21,671 nucleotides of DNA from the IMG/VR virus record IMGVR_UViG_3300021559_000324, positions 1 to 21,671 of that record; one strand, given 5' to 3'. Origin of the DNA: a virus. The position numbers were made by a program, and so were the translations under genes. The notes beneath the pieces were generated by a model. The model ran no database searches and had not been told where the DNA came from. It was given only the letters and a program-made list of their open reading frames with translations. Shown piece after piece: positions 1,706 through 21,671 of this stretch; the first letter of the stretch is position 1; each line of letters starts with the position of its first letter.

Positions 1706-2419
1706 ATGGAAAACGTTTCTCCCGCCCAGCGCCACAAGGCGCGTGTCCTGGCCGAGCGTGCCGCCGAAGCAGCCGCCCCCGGCGGCGTCACCCACGGCAG
1801 CGCCTACGAAATGATGCTTTATAAACTGGCGAACGACCGCCGCAGCCTGGGCAGCATCCAGTCGGTGGCGCGCAAGATCGAAGTCAAAGCCACATTGCTG
1901 CCCGAGTACCAGGACTGGATTGACGCAGTTCTGGCGAAGGGCCAAGGCGGTCAGGATGATGTCTTTGCCGCGCTCTTGGTGTGGCACATCGACTGCGGCG
2001 AGTATGCGCGGGCCGTAGAAATGGCGCGCTATGCCGTCGCCCACAAGCTGACCTTGCCGGACCAGTTCAACCGCGACATCCCGACGATGTTGCTGGATGA
2101 GTTCTCTATGGCGTACTCACACGGCAAGCTGGCCGACGATCCGGCGCAGGCCGTCGAGATCCTGGCGCAAGTCCAGCAGCTGACGGAACACTGCGACGCA
2201 CCCGACCAGGCGCGGGCCAAGCTGTTCAAGGCGGCCGCCTACGCGATGGTCGCCGTCTTGGACCAGGCCGGCAACGAGCTGCTGACAGCGTCACAACTAC
2301 CGCAGGCGGAAGCTGCCCACAAACTGATGGAGCGCGCCCTGGCCTTGTTCCCCGGCGTGGGCGTTAAACAGGTCATGGACCGCCTGCGCACGCGCATTGC
2401 TAAAACCGTACCGGACTAA
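1706..2419 (+). CDS. M: Terminase small subunit / endonuclease, P2 gpM-like
   Basis: The ATG at 1706 lies one base after the capsid stop, giving 237 residues, close to P2 gpM (about 247). An open frame runs further upstream, but that would overlap the capsid gene deeply and is not needed. In P2, gpM works with the large terminase gpP to cut cos ends and package DNA into the prohead. Seen here are a basic, alanine-rich N-terminus (SPAQRHKARVLAERAAEAAA) and a helical body with the motif LLVWHIDCGEYARAVEMARYA, typical of this family. Translation is probably coupled to the capsid gene. Confidence 0.93.
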   Translation: MENVSPAQRHKARVLAERAAEAAAPGGVTHGSAYEMMLYKLANDRRSLGSIQSVARKIEVKATLLPEYQDWIDAVLAKGQGGQDDVFAALLVWHIDCGEYARAVEMARYAVAHKLTLPDQFNRDIPTMLLDEFSMAYSHGKLADDPAQAVEILAQVQQLTEHCDAPDQARAKLFKAAAYAMVAVLDQAGNELLTASQLPQAEAAHKLMERALALFPGVGVKQVMDRLRTRIAKTVPD

Positions 2420-9346: not shown

Positions 9347-11797
9347 ATGCCAGGACTCCAAATCATTATCACCAAGGCCGGCCGCGCCGCCCTGGTCAAT
9401 GCCGAACACAACGGCACGGCGCCGCTCAAAATATCTGCAATCGGCATTACTGCCGCCGTCTTTACAGCGAACGAAGACACGACGACCTTGCCAGGCGAGA
9501 TTAAACGGCTGACAACCATTTCCGGCGAAGTGGTCGCCGCCGATACGATCCACGTCACCATCCGCGACGATGGCATCGACACCTATGCAGTGCGAGGTAT
9601 CGGTTATTGGCTCAACAACGGCGTCTTGTTTGGCGTCTACAGCCAGCCAGATCCGATATTGCAAAAATCGACACAGTCGATGATGCTGCTGGCCGCTGAT
9701 GCCGTATTCACCACCGTCAAGGCCACGGCGCTGACCTTCGGCGATGCCAATTTCACGAACCCGCCGGCCACCGTAGACCGCCAGGGCGTGGTCGAACTGG
9801 CGACGCCGGCGGAAACCGTCGCCGGTACGGACGGCACCCGCGCCGTCACACCAGCGGGCCTTTCGCCGGCCATGGCGCAAGCCATCGCCAAACACCTGGC
9901 GGTAGTCGATCCGCATCAGCAATACCTGACGCCGGAACGCGGCAATGCTCTGTATTTCCGCAAGCTGCCGGCCTATACCGATAGTGATACCAATTGCGAC
10001 ACCTTGCTGGACACCGGCGTGCGCGATGTCTCTGTCGCCAATGATCGCGGCGTCATCGCCGCCACCAGACTGCCCATGGGCGCCGATGGCTATGGCACGT
10101 TGACCACCGAGAACGGCGGCCAGTTCGTGCACCAGGTCTATACAGAAGCCTCTATCCGACACCGTACCTGGCAGCGATCCGGCTATCTGGGCGCCGAACA
10201 ACCCTTTAAAGGCAGCGATTGGAAGCAGCTCTGGGACTCTGTGACGTTCGACCCCGCCTCCAAGCAAGACAAGCTCCCCTTTACGCCTGTCCAACAAGGC
10301 ACCGGCCATGGGCAGAAATGGAATGTCGTCAAAATCGGCTGGACTGGTGATGTTTTGAAAGTCACCGTCGATGACTACGATCTCGGTGCGGTTGTCTTTC
10401 AGGCCAATCTGGATGCTGCGCTGAAAAATTACTTGCCGCTGTCGGGTGGCCGCCTATCAGGAAAATTAACGGTGGTCGGCTCTGTTGGAAGCATTGCAAC
10501 CACCGGCGCAGAAACTCCTGCTATGGAAGTGTCTTCCGACGACGCAGTGACAAGCGACGCTTACATGACGTTTCGCCGTGCCGGTCGGTTTGCTGCGCAT
10601 TTTGGGCTGGATGCCAATAACGACTTTGCAGCCGGCGGCTATTCCATGGGGAACGTGTCTTATAAATTCTGGCACGCCGGTAATTTCAACCCTGCGGCCA
10701 AGCAGGATACGCTGGGCTACCGCCCTCCCCAGGCGGTCGGCACCTGGCTCAACAGTGTGACCGTTGCCGATAATCGTGCAACTAGTCCCGCACCGCAAGA
10801 CCGGGACATGGGCATCTATTTCGATTTTAAAAATAACGATGCTGGCGGTCTCAATGACGGCGGGGTTCAACATGGTGAAATCACCTTCCGACAATGGGGC
10901 GCAGGTGGCGACTTCTCCGGCGGTCCAACGCATCAACTCGGCTTTACTGCGAACGGGAATCTGCATCATCGGACTGGCAGCGCCGACAAATGGGCCGGCT
11001 GGCAGCGCTTCCTGACGCAGGGTCAGAACGGAACGCTGCCGGATAACGGCATGGTGATTATCAAGGATTGCAATAGCGCGCCGCTCGGTTGGGCCACCTA
11101 CACGCAGGAGGCAACTGCTAATCGCCCGAGCGCTTACGGTCAGCTCTTTACGTCATCGCTCACCGGAAATTCGCTAGGCACGAACGGCAATTGGCTCATG
11201 CAGCGCGCCCTGTCTACCGATAACCAAATTTACACGCGCGTCAATACGGGCGGTGGCGTATGGACCGCCTGGGCGCTGTGCTGGAGCAATAACAATTTTG
11301 ATCCTGGCAGCAAAGCAACAGGCAACGGCTATGTCATGAATTGGGCGGGCCAAGGCGGTCAGCCTACCTGGCTTCTGGGTGGTAACTACCCTAACGCCAT
11401 CAACGTCTACAACCCTGCCAACTTCAGCGTCAATTATGCCAATAGCGCCGGCACCGCCAGCAGCGCGGGAAATGCCGACAGGGTCGGCGGCGTGCCGATG
11501 CGATGGGCAGAAAACAATGGTGTGCAGCCTTACTACTTGTATGGCGTCGTTGCCGGCAACCAGGAGTTGACGTTGTTTACCCGTACCCAGGTGGCCGTTG
11601 GCTCCTGCGTCTCGGCGATGTATGCGAATCAGCTTTCCGGTCAGGGTCTGGGGCGCGGTGGTATCGGCAACTATGAATTGATCAAGAACAAGAGCACCAG
11701 CGGATTGCCTGGGGCATGGGAGCAACGCGGCCAGGTCTATGACTACGGGTCCGGTGCGAGTGAAGGTAATGAATCAAGTGCAGTGTTATGGCAACGG
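9347..11797 (+). pseudogene. H: Tail fibre protein, P2 gpH-like, 3' end lost at a deletion junction
   Basis: The first part (MPGLQIIITKAGRAALVNAE) is the standard N-terminal domain that attaches P2-type fibres to the baseplate. A fibre shaft and receptor-binding region with typical collagen-like or shufflon-like segments follow (YANSAGTASSAGNADRVGG). Near residue 817 the sequence reads DYGSGASEGNESSAVLWQR, which looks like the natural last few residues of such fibres. After that the frame runs into gene D sequence in the wrong frame and stops at 12064 (905 codons in total). So perhaps only a few native residues are missing, with about 88 foreign ones added. The fibre may still fold. The fibre-assembly gene G that should follow is absent. 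Confidence 0.85.
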
Positions 11798-12411
11798 GAG
11801 TGCGAGCGTTCTGGCACGACGTCAATTATGGTGGCCTACGCCGCAGCGTTGTTGCTGGCGTGCCTGGTAACACCAAGCGGCTGCGAACTACATACACCAG
11901 CGAGGCAGACGCGCGGACCGTCGCCGTCGCCGAATGGCAGCGCATTCAACGCGGCTTGGCATCATTCGAACTGTCGCTTGCTCTGGGTAATCCTGCGCTT
12001 ATACCTCAATCGCCGGTCAAGGTCTCGGGATTCAAGGTCTCCATCGATAATATGGATTGGCTGACCACCAAGGTCACGCATAGCATTAGCGACGCGGGCT
12101 ATACCTCACGCATTGAGATGGAGACGCGAACGGAGGAAGCAGAGGTAGAGCGTGAAGACGAGCTGGACCGCGACCCCGGCGTAACTGGTGTGATCGCCAA
12201 GTGGCGCGATATTATTTCAAATAAAACTGGCCGGGAACTGGAGCCAACGACAGGAACAGGGAAGCTTAGAAAGCCAGTAGCAGGCGCCGCGGCCAACCCA
12301 AAAACGCTGACCCATATTTATGCAAATCGGCAAACTGCCCAGCACGCTGCAAAAAGTGAATGGGCCAAAATCATTGAACGTAGAAACATAATAAGAGATA
12401 ACAGTGAGTAG
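11798..12411 (+). pseudogene. D: Late control protein gpD, C-terminal half only
   Basis: About 204 residues are clearly the C-terminal part of the P2 gpD family (full length about 390), starting VRAFWHDVNYGG. Typical segments are TYTSEADARTVAVAEWQRIQ, NPALIPQSPVKVSGFKV and MDWLTTKVTHSISDAGYTSR. gpD is the tail tip (hub) protein next to the spike. The N-terminal half is missing. An ATG at 11788 lies in frame but has no ribosome-binding site. The remnant contains two copies of an N-x-K-x-L-x3-Y-x5-A-x3-A-x2-EW motif (about 11869-11955 and 12295-12384), which I believe is normal for betaproteobacterial gpD. Confidence 0.87.
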
Positions 12412-12549: not shown

Positions 12550-13053
12550 TCAATTAAATATTTTTTCAGGGTCATTTATTTCCCGTTCAAAGCAAATGTG
12601 AAATGCTCCCTTCATCACAGGATTACCGTCATTGAATTGTTGCCAAATCGATTCCGCACTATGCTGTGGCCAGAGATGATTGACTAAATGAATATGAGGA
12701 CCATTTTTGAAGTGATTGTTTTTATGATCGAGGTCGCGTTGATCAAAGTAAAAGAAATGCCAATTTGAATGATCTTGCAAATAGAAAATATGGCCAACAA
12801 GATAGCGTCGTTGCTTAAGAATTTGAGGGAACAGGCTTTTTATATTGTCGGGTGTATACCGTAAGTGCGCCGGTATAAAATCACGATATGAGATGTGATG
12901 AATCCAAGGGAGAGCTCGCATTTCGCAACCTTCGATGACTTGATGAAATGCTCCAAGTGTAATAACTGATTTTCGGCACAGTTTATCGAGGTCTCTCTTT
13001 GTTTTCGCAAGGAGAAGCTGTACTAGCATTTCGCAACTTGATTTGTCGTCCAT
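12550..13053 (-). CDS. Orphan protein at the end of the repressor operon
   Basis: This 167-residue protein starts at the ATG at 13053, with AGGGG six bases upstream; an ATG at 13071 has no such site. I do not recognise the family. It is predicted to be soluble, without signal or membrane segments, and is unusually rich in His, Phe, Trp and Asn in its second half (WHFFYFDQRDLDH, GPHIHLVNHLWP). The HIH triplet in GPHIHLVN could bind metal, but no known catalytic pattern is complete. Low GC content suggests recent transfer. It is the last and most separated gene (71-base gap) behind the repressor and is likely cargo expressed in the lysogen. Confidence 0.7.
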   Translation of the reverse strand: MDDKSSCEMLVQLLLAKTKRDLDKLCRKSVITLGAFHQVIEGCEMRALPWIHHISYRDFIPAHLRYTPDNIKSLFPQILKQRRYLVGHIFYLQDHSNWHFFYFDQRDLDHKNNHFKNGPHIHLVNHLWPQHSAESIWQQFNDGNPVMKGAFHICFEREINDPEKIFN

Positions 13054-13124
13054 TGCTACCCCTTTTGCCAATTCTAATATTTACCCTAGTTGGAGCATTT
13101 CAGCGGAGATCACCTTTTGACAGA

Positions 13125-13823
13125 TTAACGCATTCGATTTTTTTGTAAATCATCCCAGCGCGGCGTACCCGCAGTCTCACCAACAACGCACTCTCTTATC
13201 CCGACATTCAAAATCTTGGCAGTGCTTCCTACCGAGTAGGATTTTCCATCGTTGTGGCAAATGGTTTCAGTCGGTACTGCGGTTGCCTGCGGGATATCGG
13301 TCGGCATTTTATACAATAACCAACCGCAGCCAGCCGCTAACATCATTAGTCCCCCCGTTAATGCCAGCGCTGTCCATGTCAGTTTTTTATTGGCGCTGGC
13401 CTTTTCCGCGCAGGCGATACACGAAAGGGGTAGTTCAGGAATATTGGCGGCTGCAGGCATAGTCTCGATTTCCTCGATTTCGGGTGCCGACGTTCCGTTA
13501 GTTTCAGCCAGCGAATTATTGAGTAGCGCCATGACCGCTTTATAGCTCTCCAGCGGAACTTGTTCAATTCTTATCACACCGTGTTCGTTCTTGATGACGT
13601 TGTACACATCATGGATGCTCATGCCGCTGCTTGTCGCGACCTCTTTAACCTTTTCAAAAATTGCCTTGCGTTGCAATCCAGTTAGAAATTTTGGCGGCTG
13701 CGGCTCCGGTTCGACCGATGCCCCTCCGATGATCTGAACAATATTGCTAAGCCTGGGTGCTTCGTGAACGCTACCTACAACTGCTTGTGAAACATCACCG
13801 TGAAACGCTGTCTTTTCCGTCAT
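13125..13823 (-). CDS. Single-pass membrane protein sharing two blocks with the repressor
   Basis: This 232-residue protein has, in order: an FHG block (residues 7-20, FHGDVSQAVVGSVH), a helical block (50-107, LQRKAIFEKVKEVA then DVYNVI and YKAVMALL), a CxxC pair at 135/138, one membrane helix (147-171), and a 60-residue tail with C189 and C212. KK just before the helix predicts N-terminus inside and tail in the periplasm. The tail (GKSYSVGSTAKI, EC, PRW) resembles small DUF1496-type domains; that match is tentative. Both N-terminal blocks recur in the repressor in opposite order. It lies in the same operon. Function is unknown; a membrane-linked partner of the repressor is my inference. Confidence 0.78.
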   Translation of the reverse strand: MTEKTAFHGDVSQAVVGSVHEAPRLSNIVQIIGGASVEPEPQPPKFLTGLQRKAIFEKVKEVATSSGMSIHDVYNVIKNEHGVIRIEQVPLESYKAVMALLNNSLAETNGTSAPEIEEIETMPAAANIPELPLSCIACAEKASANKKLTWTALALTGGLMMLAAGCGWLLYKMPTDIPQATAVPTETICHNDGKSYSVGSTAKILNVGIRECVVGETAGTPRWDDLQKNRMR

Positions 13824-13879
13824 GCTAGCTACATCTCCAAAATGCTTTTTACTGATACCTGTAATTCTGATAGTCCAAC

Positions 13880-14689
13880 CTATTTCAATTTTTTTAGCGC
13901 GCTCTCAAATGCCTTTGCGGTATCAGGTCTTAGCCCACTATTTAATTGAGCGACGACTTTTCCATCCCTTGATCGATACAGATACGGTCCGGCAAGACTG
14001 ATCAAGGCATCGTAATAGGCATAAATTGCATCGCAATTTCTCTTAGTAGAACAGATGAAAATTTGTCCACCTTGGGGTGCAACTTCATCTATTGCAAACG
14101 CAATATTTTCGTCAAAGCTCTGTGGTTGAAGTGCGCCTGGCTTCCGCTCGAGGTAGTCGAATGCGTAGATTCCCGTATCCCCGTTGACCAACGCCGCCAG
14201 CACCGCAGAGCCGCGAGATGGCGCTTCATTGTTGGCAAAGGAGTCGGCTGTCTTCTTAACTCTGACCAATTGTTCAAAATCGATCCAATACGAGGGCGTG
14301 CCATCTAGCGGCGCTACGTTCGCCCAGCTATTTGTAAAGTCCACCTGGCGTATGTCTACTTTTTGATGATGTGCGGGTTGAAAATAATGAATGGACGCAT
14401 CCTCAAAGCTGTCGACCTTGGCTCTTTTCCTGAGCCTTTCCATTGTCCGTTCGCGACTGTCTCCCGGTTGGAAAATGCCTTCGCTCTCCAGAAATTTTGC
14501 TCTTAGATAAAAACGCACATAGTCACAAACCGCGAGACTGTCGCAGGCTATTGCTGGTTCGTCTTTTGGTGAGTAGGTAAGCGCGTGGCCCCGGTCGCAC
14601 GTGGATCGCGTACATGCGTCATCATCAGCAATGGACAGATGGCAGATACTTAAAAACAGCACACCGGCTGCAATGTTCTTATACGACAT
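13880..14689 (-). CDS. Exported cysteine-containing protein, unknown family
   Basis: This 269-residue protein has a clear signal peptide (MSYKNIAAGVLFLSICHLSI, likely cut after A21). The mature protein carries cysteines at 26, 31, 49 and 55 and a later CSTKRNC pair, consistent with periplasmic disulfides. The rest looks globular (YWIDFEQLVRV, GDTGIYAFDYLER, QIFICSTKRNC). I do not recognise a family. The ATG lies 8 bases after the repressor stop without a ribosome-binding site of its own, so translation is probably coupled to the repressor. Co-expression with the repressor suggests a lysogen envelope function such as superinfection exclusion; this is inference. Confidence 0.75.
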   Translation of the reverse strand: MSYKNIAAGVLFLSICHLSIADDDACTRSTCDRGHALTYSPKDEPAIACDSLAVCDYVRFYLRAKFLESEGIFQPGDSRERTMERLRKRAKVDSFEDASIHYFQPAHHQKVDIRQVDFTNSWANVAPLDGTPSYWIDFEQLVRVKKTADSFANNEAPSRGSAVLAALVNGDTGIYAFDYLERKPGALQPQSFDENIAFAIDEVAPQGGQIFICSTKRNCDAIYAYYDALISLAGPYLYRSRDGKVVAQLNSGLRPDTAKAFESALKKLK

Positions 14690-19170: not shown

Positions 19171-19427
19171 GCACCATACCTATGTCCGACGATATATTTT
19201 TGAGGGATTGCCACGTAGACGAGCTGACCGGTATTAAGCGTGGCATCACAATTAATGGGAAAAAGAAGTCCAAATATCAATTGCAGGTCGAGTTCCTACG
19301 CACACGCGGGATTGCGTTTATCGAAAACGCTCGCGGCCGGCCGGTTGTGGTCCGTTCGATTATCGAAGGTGGTCGCGCGACAGCGGCGCCGAAAACAGCA
19401 TGGCAACCAAAAGTCATTGGGGAATAG
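19167..19427 (+). CDS. DUF4224-like small protein next to integrase
   Basis: This 86-residue protein has the order seen in DUF4224 proteins: DDIFLRDCHVDELTG, a basic turn (KKKSKYQLQVEFLRTRGIAF) and NARGRPVVVR. These small proteins are nearly always encoded directly before a phage tyrosine integrase and may help excision or integration, although I know of no proven mechanism. The stop lies one base before the integrase ATG, so the two are coupled. Confidence 0.82.
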   Translation: MSTIPMSDDIFLRDCHVDELTGIKRGITINGKKKSKYQLQVEFLRTRGIAFIENARGRPVVVRSIIEGGRATAAPKTAWQPKVIGE

Positions 19428-19428
19428 T

Positions 19429-20514
19429 ATGGGACGTAAGCCAACAACACATTCAAATCTACCTCCGCGCATGCGCGCCCGTACTCAGCGCAGCGGAAAG
19501 ATTTATTTTTACTATGACACAGGAGACAAACCGCGCCGCGAAATACCACTCGGCGGCGACTATGTTGAGGCAGTGCGCAAGTGGTCGGAATTGGAAATAG
19601 ACACAAAGGTAAATCCGTCCAAGCTTGTTACGTTCCGCTACGCATGCGAGATTTATCAGAAAAAATATTTGCCGGCGAACAAACGGAAAACGCGCATCGA
19701 AAAATTGCGGCAGTTGGAAACGCTGTATCTATTTTTCGATAATCCGCCGGCGCCTTTGGACGACATCAAACCGATTCATATTCGGCAGTTCATGGATTGG
19801 CGCATTAAGCTCACTCAGGACAAGTTACGCCAAGAAGGTAAGCCTGTCGCGGGTCATGAGGGCGAAGTCGCAGCAAACCGTGAAAAAGCACTTATTTCTC
19901 ATGTATGGAACGCAGCGCGCGACAGTGGCTTGACCGACAAAGCGAATCCATGCGCCGGTATCAAGGCATACAAGGAAAGCGGGCGCGACGTGTATGTATA
20001 CGACGACATGTATTCGGCAGTTTGGAATGTAGCTGATGTGCCGCTGCAGGAGGCAATGGATTTGACGTACTTGTCCGGCGCCAGGCCGGCGGATGTCCTT
20101 AAAATCGACGAGCGTGATCTACGTGAAGGCTCTATCGAGGTCCAGCAAAATAAGACTACGCAAAAACAGCGTATTGCAATTCAAGGTGAGCTGGCCATAC
20201 TGATTGATCGGATTTTGAAACGTAAGCGCGCTATCAACGGGACGGTAGTCTCCACCCGCCTGTTGGTCAACGAAGTTGGGCAACCTTTGACCTATTACGC
20301 CTTGCGTTCACGTTTCGACAAATCGCGCGACATCGCCGCAATTGAAAAATCCGCGTTCCAGTTCCGTGACCTGCGCGCGAAAGCTGGGACTGACAAGACC
20401 GATAGCAGCGGCGACATTCGGCAGGCGCAGAAACAATTAGGCCATGCCAGCGTGACGATGACAGAACACTATGTAAGAAAGAGGCGCGGGGACAAAGTCA
20501 CACCAACCAAATAG
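19429..20514 (+). CDS. int: Tyrosine integrase
   Basis: The ATG at 19429 gives 361 residues; an open frame extends upstream only through the DUF4224 gene. Catalytic residues visible: R219 (LSGARPADVL), K242 or K246, R316 (QFRDLRAKAG), H339 (QLGHASVTMT) and the nucleophile Y348 (EHYVRKR). In the HxxR box the histidine is replaced by R313, a form I believe common in this subfamily. The N-terminal region (about 1-60) is basic and may bind arm sites; a core-binding domain follows. It should catalyse insertion and excision at att sites. It lies at the right end of the early operon, as in phiCTX-like members of the group rather than in P2 itself. Confidence 0.94.
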   Translation: MGRKPTTHSNLPPRMRARTQRSGKIYFYYDTGDKPRREIPLGGDYVEAVRKWSELEIDTKVNPSKLVTFRYACEIYQKKYLPANKRKTRIEKLRQLETLYLFFDNPPAPLDDIKPIHIRQFMDWRIKLTQDKLRQEGKPVAGHEGEVAANREKALISHVWNAARDSGLTDKANPCAGIKAYKESGRDVYVYDDMYSAVWNVADVPLQEAMDLTYLSGARPADVLKIDERDLREGSIEVQQNKTTQKQRIAIQGELAILIDRILKRKRAINGTVVSTRLLVNEVGQPLTYYALRSRFDKSRDIAAIEKSAFQFRDLRAKAGTDKTDSSGDIRQAQKQLGHASVTMTEHYVRKRRGDKVTPTK

Positions 20515-20699
20515 GTTGCAAATCAAGCCATATTCACTTTGCGGCATCGTAAACCAGATTTGTCGTTACAATGTTGCAAAATTGGGCTGGGGGTGTACTT
20601 TAAGAAGCTTTTGTATTAATATTTGCCTTAATACGTCCCCCGCCTCTGTTCCCGGTCATTTAATCATGTGCCGGTCAATCAAGCGGGGGATTTCTCTTT
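20515..20699 (+). promoter_or_regulatory. Leader of the AbiF-like gene
   Basis: This 185-base AT-rich spacer contains the following. GTTGCAAA occurs twice as a direct repeat (20515-20522 and 20573-20580). A promoter-like TTGCAA (20574-20579) is followed by TACTTT (20596-20601) with 16-base spacing. CCGGTCA occurs twice (20652-20658 and 20671-20677). A stem TCCCCCGC/GCGGGGGA (20636-20643 and 20683-20690) encloses an inner CCGG/CCGG hairpin. The 3' arm includes the GGGGGA that best serves as ribosome-binding site, nine bases before the ATG. It could encode a small structured RNA or a translation switch. It may also contain part of the attachment region next to int. Confidence 0.5.
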
Positions 20700-21671
20700 A
20701 TGCTGCCAGTTGGCTCATATTCCAATATCAAGTTTCATCTAACCGCTTCGCAACAAATTTCTTTGCTCAAAGAGCGGGGCATGGTTTTCACAGATGAAAT
20801 ATCCGCGCAAAAAACACTGTTAAACCTTGGCTACTATCGGTTTGCAGGCTATTTTTATTCTTTTCGCAAGACAAATCCTAGAGGGACGCCAGGGCGGCAA
20901 GACGAATTTCAGGCAGGAACAAGTTTTGCTATCGTGGAACAACTTGCCGAATTTGATCGTCTGCTCCGGCTAATGGTACTGGATGCAGCAGCCTGTATTG
21001 AGGTCGCAGTGCGTTGCGATATTGCTCATAGGCTGGGTGTGCAACATAGAATTGCACATGAACAACCTTCTTTGTTAGATGCCAAGTTTGGCGTTACGAT
21101 CGATCCAGTAACCGGCAGAACTGAGTATGCTGAATGGAGAGACAAATTAGCTGCCGCCGTACATCGCGCAAGAAGAGAAGACTTCGTTAAACACCACATC
21201 AATAAATATGGTGGGCGAATGCCAATCTGGACCATCATTGAGGTCTGGGATTTCGGATTGCTTTCAAGATTTTTTGCGGGAATGCAGTTCAAAGATCAGA
21301 CACACATTGCGCGTCGTTACGGCCTGCAACAAGGCCAACATCTAGCGTCCTGGCTTCGGTCAATCAATTTCGTTAGAAACGTGTCAGCGCACCATTCAAG
21401 ACTTTGGAACCGTAATATTGTTGAACGTCCCACCTTTCAGAAAACTCAACCTCACGAGCATTTACATCACTTGACACAGGATGTGCACGCACAAACGCGA
21501 GTATATGGATCGCTGTGTATTCTTAAGTCAATGCTAAGGGTAGCGTCGCCTGATAACAACTGGACAGAACGTCTTCGCGCACTATGCCAAACATTTCCAG
21601 TAAATCCGATAGTCAGTTTACAGGACGCTGGATTTCCTCCCGACTGGGAGCAAAAAACCATCTGGAATTAA
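20700..21671 (+). CDS. AbiD/AbiF-family (Abi_2) HEPN abortive-infection protein
   Basis: This 323-residue protein is a complete member of the Abi_2 family by pattern: ISLLKERGMVF near the N-terminus, then LLNLGYYRFAGYFYSFRK, EFDRLLRLMVLDAAACIEVA, MPIWTIIEVWDFGLLSRFF and the strongly diagnostic INFVRNVSAHHSRLWNRNI. The R226-N-x3-H231 motif is the predicted HEPN ribonuclease site. Such proteins stop phage growth by cleaving RNA when triggered. The gene is AT-richer than the early operon and ends at the last base of the window. Whether it lies inside the prophage or just beyond the attachment site cannot be decided here. Confidence 0.9.
   Translation: MLPVGSYSNIKFHLTASQQISLLKERGMVFTDEISAQKTLLNLGYYRFAGYFYSFRKTNPRGTPGRQDEFQAGTSFAIVEQLAEFDRLLRLMVLDAAACIEVAVRCDIAHRLGVQHRIAHEQPSLLDAKFGVTIDPVTGRTEYAEWRDKLAAAVHRARREDFVKHHINKYGGRMPIWTIIEVWDFGLLSRFFAGMQFKDQTHIARRYGLQQGQHLASWLRSINFVRNVSAHHSRLWNRNIVERPTFQKTQPHEHLHHLTQDVHAQTRVYGSLCILKSMLRVASPDNNWTERLRALCQTFPVNPIVSLQDAGFPPDWEQKTIWN

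Follow-up and report, generated by a model that had tools for sequence, protein, structure and literature searches.

A predicted AbiF-type toxin at the end of a P2-like provirus fragment, preceded by a conserved hairpin that probably represents a distinct class of antitoxin RNA

Introduction

Does a phage-associated abortive infection gene come with its own guardian RNA and, if so, is that RNA of a kind already described? The question is raised by IMG/VR record IMGVR_UViG_3300021559_000324, of which positions 1 to 21,671 were analyzed (hereafter the window, a stretch of 21,671 nucleotides). The window closes with a gene for a predicted HEPN protein of the AbiF type, and a foldable leader stands directly before it. 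The original prediction, made from the letters, tied some AbiF-type proteins to small RNA partners and to the ancestry of Cas13, and both ties are indeed published (PMC12373285; PMC12165695; PMC12737573). Such loci are of interest because RNA-guided Cas13 is proposed to have arisen from AbiF/RNA pairs.

The window encodes an AbiF/AbiD-family HEPN protein

The last 972 bases of the window form a complete open reading frame (ORF) of 323 codons for amino acids (Table 1). Its product matches Pfam Abi_2 with an E-value of 3.3e-48 and 164.9 bits, above the curated cut-off of 25.6 bits, and is labelled AbiD by PADLOC (E 7.8e-65) and 'abortive infection resistance protein' by PHROGs. The HEPN motif RNxxxH occurs once in the 323 residues, as R226-N-V-S-A-H231, and its R, N, A and H are invariant in two alignments (17 and 32 sequences). 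The gene is thus the complete Abi_2 gene with an intact RNxxxH site that had been predicted.

By sequence, the protein is related over its full length to PbAbiF (E 9e-34), whose dimer has been solved together with its non-coding RNA (PDB 8vz6; Zilberzwige-Tal et al., Cell 2025). R226 and H231 align with the catalytic R210 and H215 of PbAbiF, a double mutant of which is reported to be inactive (PMC12373285). The fold is shared as well: an AlphaFold2 model of the window protein (mean pLDDT 94) gave a sole significant Foldseek match among solved structures, namely 8vz6 (E 8e-16, TM 0.77/0.83). We therefore assign the protein to the AbiF/AbiD (Abi_2) HEPN family, and its relatives lead us to predict a toxic RNase activity.

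The leader folds into a two-part hairpin

The leader between the integrase stop and the AbiF start (20515-20699) is 185 nt long. The only listed plus-strand ORF that crosses it (20516-20797) begins with TTG, lies in another frame than AbiF and had no match in a Pfam search, in line with the earlier description of a 185-base non-coding leader. Positions 20636-20643 and 20683-20690 form eight perfect pairs, or nine counting G20635-U20691, and the hairpin has a folding z-score of -4.3 to -4.9. The GGGGGA in its 3' arm, 9 nt before the ATG, is the only Shine-Dalgarno-like run; the stem-loop proposed at 20636-20690, burying the ribosome-binding site, thus holds.

The two direct repeats of CCGGTCA that had also been pointed out are present, at 20652 and 20671, but do not behave as a functional unit. 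Their CCGG halves, each followed by UCA, are the two strands of the inner stem, and the repeats are not conserved among relatives, so that they are best seen as by-products of this stem. A ToxI-like repeat array was considered and rejected on these grounds; ToxIN-type type III systems have tandem repeats that the toxin cuts into units, unlike the window with its one hairpin.

Upstream, the putative -10 element TAATAT ends 12 nt before the hairpin. This gap is the same as in most relatives, whose leaders often carry a sigma-70 promoter with a -10 ending 11-13 nt before the stem. The 5' end of the predicted RNA (20629) was placed from the -10 position and from a conserved AAYAYG-like 5' flank. 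A consensus scan for a sigma-70 promoter found none, and the best promoter site close to the hairpin does not surpass those in shuffles (p 0.33). The promoter-like sequence originally assigned to the leader is thus weak. An operator-like inverted repeat, GTATTAA-N8-TTAATAC (20613-20634), overlaps the putative promoter.

Table 1. Features of the window and stand-alone RNAs in other viral records (handles beginning with L denote other loci or records)
Feature	Coordinates	Strand	Evidence or context
Tyrosine integrase (neighbour, outside toxin unit)	window 19396..20514	+	Pfam
Weak promoter-like site: TGTACT (20594-20599), 17 nt, TAATAT (20617-20622)	window 20594..20622	+	conserved gap
Predicted antitoxin RNA, class CUC-UG...CA-A	window 20629..20694	+	covariance model R1, covariation, conserved bases, fold
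Outer stem, 5' arm GUCCCCCGC	window 20635..20643	+	fold, covariation
Conserved 5' bulge CUC, plus UG able to pair with CA 20680-20681	window 20644..20648	+	alignment
Inner hairpin CCGG-U-CAU / loop / GUG-CCGG, holding both CCGG of the CCGGTCA repeats	window 20652..20674	+	fold
3' bulge UCAAUCAA	window 20675..20682	+	UCAA invariant in nearest subgroup of relatives
Outer stem, 3' arm GCGGGGGAU, with probable ribosome-binding site GGGGGA (20685-20690)	window 20683..20691	+	sequence, fold
U-rich tail, terminator-like, reaching start codon	window 20692..20699	+	sequence after stem
AbiF/AbiD HEPN toxin (predicted)	window 20700..21671	+	323 aa, RNVSAH at residues 226-231, Abi_2 match, fold
Stand-alone RNA	L074 31-73	-	no AbiF detected in record
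Stand-alone RNA	L079 334-375	-	convergent to end of M15-peptidase (endolysin-like) gene
Stand-alone RNA	L085 7456-7497	-	convergent to end of M15-peptidase gene, by reading
Stand-alone RNA	L086 519-562	+	overlaps HicB-like antitoxin ORF before terminase-like gene
Stand-alone RNA	L088 932-973	-	near integrase
Stand-alone RNA	L089 299-341	+	no AbiF detected in record
Stand-alone RNA	L090 380-421	+	convergent to end of M15-peptidase (endolysin-like) gene
Stand-alone RNA	L112 1006-1046	+	no AbiF detected in record

The hairpin is conserved before AbiF genes

AbiF relatives 26-44% identical in protein were collected from plasmids, phages, two genomes and IMG/VR, and the DNA upstream of their genes was read. 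In most of them, a two-part, GC-rich hairpin with a U-rich tail stands a short way upstream of the start codon. A covariance model, R1, was built from the leaders of 17 relatives, with member hairpins chosen by eye and the window excluded. Applied to the whole window with filters off, R1 has its best match at 20632-20694 (21.8 bits, E 6.6e-4; next E 0.21), and among 41 matches only the AbiF leader hairpin stands out. The score is modest against the 33-50 bits of most members owing to the long inner hairpin of the window, which is probably also why R1 with default filters misses it.

Across 27 sequences, 97.7% of outer-stem positions form standard pairs and two-sided changes are found in six of the eight pairs. 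None of 500 shuffles reached as high a value, and slid versions of the stem gave 21-56%. Inner hairpins vary in sequence and length, mostly being more stable than same-letter shuffles, and in the nearest subgroup (the window and eight others) C-N-CUGU and UCAAG are invariant. A comparison of homologue leaders had been proposed as the check on the original prediction, and the prediction passed it: the bipartite hairpin is conserved across these leaders, its pairs change in compensating fashion, and R1 detects the window hairpin although the window had no part in building it. On this comparative evidence, the hairpin at 20635-20691 is a genuine and conserved RNA element.

Ahead of AbiF genes in otherwise unrelated surroundings, bases are conserved and paired positions change in compensating fashion; together with the folding z-score and the one match in 41 that stands out, this makes it very improbable that the hairpin serves only as the integrase gene's intrinsic terminator or is a GC-rich inverted repeat arisen by chance, despite its GC-rich stem, its U-rich tail and its position 120 nt past the integrase stop. 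That the locus is an RNA-guided system like Cas13, with a guide in its leader RNA, seems to us scarcely credible, even with AbiF proposed as the Cas13 ancestor (PMC12165695, PMC12737573). Type VI systems combine two HEPN motifs in one protein with a CRISPR array; here one RNxxxH was found, the searched leader has no repeat-spacer array, and nothing in the RNA beyond the inner loop looks like a variable guide. Moreover, published work describes AbiF as a toxin-antitoxin system and places RNA guidance only with Cas13e (PMC12737573).

A blastn search of the leader plus gene against plasmids returned nothing, and against phages the leader yielded only chance fragments; the RNA is therefore recognizable only via protein-anchored comparison. 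A locus search with the single protein found two genome loci and no viral ones, and alignment queries were needed for more. No upstream hairpin was seen in L009, L010, L021, L023, L096 and L097, six relatives close to L019, L022 and the window, so not every AbiF of the clade keeps a recognizable adjacent RNA.

Several loci merit separate mention. The same six relatives form an AbiF subclade near that of the window, with no recognizable RNA nearby, and in L010 genes for the S and R subunits of type I restriction flank AbiF. In L027 and L032, two consecutive hairpins resembling the window's class (33.7 or 34 bits, and 18.7 bits) precede one AbiF gene, recalling the two abiF motifs of RCd22 from Clostridioides difficile.

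Two RNA classes divide with the toxin tree

The public model for AbiF RNAs, Rfam RF03085, has a gathering score of 37 bits and gave no match in the window, either at gathering or at E 10. The Rfam matches that did appear there, PyrG_leader and U11, were set aside as chance (at most 18 bits, E 0.5-5). Another group of AbiF leaders, class A, has the RF03085 layout: an outer stem, a 3-bp inner stem around a CUCUC-type loop and a 6-nt 3' bulge. RF03085 reaches its cut-off in phiC2, L048 and L059. A model of these RF03085-type leaders, R2, scores the window hairpin at 6.6 bits, compared with 21.8 for R1.

The window hairpin resembles the RF03085 RNA in being a putative small RNA gene just before abiF with a two-part hairpin, a conserved CUCU run and a U-rich tail, and it differs in going undetected by the Rfam model and scoring poorly with R2. 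Bacteroidota-side relatives have an RF03085-like RNA with the inner 3-bp stem and 6-nt 3' bulge, whereas the window RNA is without that layout.

A scored hairpin was assigned to 41 of the 61 proteins in an AbiF tree (18 of class A, 23 of class B, the class of the window), leaving 20 without. All 18 class A members fall on one side of a branch supported at 98/93 and all 23 class B members on the other, with no mixing; class B labels include L022, whose RNA is downstream, and the members from which R1 was built. Because the RNA classes split with the toxin tree, toxin and RNA appear, as far as sequence comparison goes, to be matched and to evolve together. Zilberzwige-Tal et al. (Cell 2025) reportedly used further covariance models of 'diverse' AbiF RNAs, and these may already include the class found in the window.

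The same RNA class also occurs outside AbiF leaders

Viral contigs were scanned with a pattern consisting of the stem bases and CUCUG only, plus two tighter patterns. The scan recovered AbiF leaders (L024/L081 and L113) as well as eight viral records with the full RNA architecture (Table 1), in which no Abi_2 match was found anywhere, records that may be incomplete. The eight RNAs score 28.8-42.6 bits as against 13-17 bits for chance pattern matches; 11 matches were set aside as chance, at 13-17 bits where scored. An ACAYG-like 5' flank, which lies outside the search pattern, is kept in seven of the eight, with GATATG in L088, and the U-rich tail is lost in four. Three of the records (L079, L085 and L090) look like related phages. 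A blastn search with the L074 RNA gave four matches on plasmids at a coverage of 80% or more, each of them an AbiF leader. The lytic cyanophage S-CREM1 is reported to carry a stand-alone RF03085-type RNA (PMC9964418).

Judged from their sequences, these stand-alone phage RNAs could be antitoxin decoys. We only tentatively entertain the combined reading that the window hairpin defines a second class of AbiF antitoxin RNA, distinct in structure and co-evolved with its own toxin clade, and that the toxin-free phage copies are decoys switching off host AbiF defences. If such copies did act as antitoxins, they would amount to an RNA-only counter-defence against abortive infection.

A further displaced RNA is found in L022, where it is downstream of AbiF and convergent to it (2143-2183, minus strand) behind a strong TTGACT-17-TATAAT promoter of its own, with no hairpin upstream of the gene. 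This arrangement suggests a relocated antitoxin gene and favours action in trans over that of a pure cis-leader. The cis-leader alternative holds that the hairpin makes no trans-acting RNA and works only as a hidden ribosome-binding site or attenuator, opened by a phage product as in lactococcal AbiD1. AbiD1 belongs to the same protein family and likewise has a structured 5' UTR limiting expression; in the account cited within PMC12373285, a phage protein binds this leader and activates translation, and it is this known control by a phage protein that sets AbiD1 apart from the window. The single ribosome-binding-site-like run in the 3' arm, with the U-rich tail next to it, would suit a cis-leader. 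Set against this are the separate strand, position and promoter of the L022 RNA, the conservation of unpaired bases, the same-class RNAs without AbiF downstream and the activity of RCd22 in trans (PMC12373285), and we consider a purely cis-acting leader unlikely.

A toxin/RNA-antitoxin model for the locus

The closest studied counterpart is AbiFCd/RCd22 of the C. difficile prophage phi027, where RCd22 binds AbiFCd directly and neutralizes it both in cis and in trans; the RNA arises by termination at a terminator that it carries ahead of abiF (PMC12373285). Both systems combine an Abi_2 HEPN protein containing RNxxxH with a structured RNA immediately ahead of its gene on the same strand and a terminator-like end before the gene, and both are phage-borne, the window's probably so. 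In RCd22, however, the RF03085 abiF motif occurs twice and the terminator is a separate element, whereas a single hairpin of a different class, itself terminator-like and lying over the ribosome-binding site, is present in the window. Between the window protein and the phiC2 homologue of AbiFCd, identity is 26-28%.

AbiF/RNA toxin-antitoxin systems are already known, and the window is a member with an RNA class unrecognized by the public RF03085 model. A structured, conserved RNA gene adjoins the toxin gene, as in type III-like systems. The grounds computed here are the identity, fold and catalytic residues of the protein, the conservation and covariation of the hairpin, its position before AbiF genes and the co-segregation of class and clade. 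With good confidence, though by analogy, we regard the locus as a type-III-like toxin/RNA-antitoxin unit of the AbiF kind with a distinct 'CUC-UG...CA-A' class of RNA. The conserved, covarying hairpin before AbiF genes thereby lends support to the RNA-guarded layout of the original prediction.

For this toxin/RNA-antitoxin unit, studied relatives serve as the model for the production of the RNA, binding, neutralization, RNase toxicity and trigger. Transcription would start just upstream of 20635, and the RNA would fold into the bipartite hairpin. Given the U-rich tail that follows, termination at the hairpin or a little beyond it is expected for most transcripts, giving an RNA of roughly 60 nt that would bind the AbiF dimer and block its HEPN RNase site. 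Read-through would yield the AbiF mRNA, in which the hairpin would also hide the ribosome-binding site, so that little toxin would be made. Phage infection would then upset the balance of RNA and toxin; freed AbiF would cut RNA and growth would stop.

A second antitoxin RNA architecture that splits with toxin phylogeny would offer a natural comparison of the RNA parts needed to restrain an AbiF-type HEPN enzyme, and having two classes makes cross-neutralization directly testable.

The provirus setting

The fragment is a P2-like provirus with a capsid gene about 70% identical to those of Burkholderia phages. AbiF lies directly after the integrase, so its predicted place beside a prophage integrase is confirmed. 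Its stop codon is the exact end of the record; the gene is probably prophage cargo but may instead lie just outside the provirus. Integrase or recombinase genes also adjoin AbiF in L004, L012 and L096 and, by sequence reading, in L003 and L046.

Elsewhere in the window, a tail-fibre ORF (9347-12411) passes, out of frame, into the 3' portion of gpD (positions 399-527 of a 677-position profile), and no ORF for tail sheath, tube or tape measure was seen in the window; together these point to a deleted provirus or a joined contig. Beside the repressor gene, three minus-strand ORFs (12550-14689) without a Pfam match are possible lysogenic-conversion cargo, and one of them resembles the phage membrane 'moron' phrog_6521.
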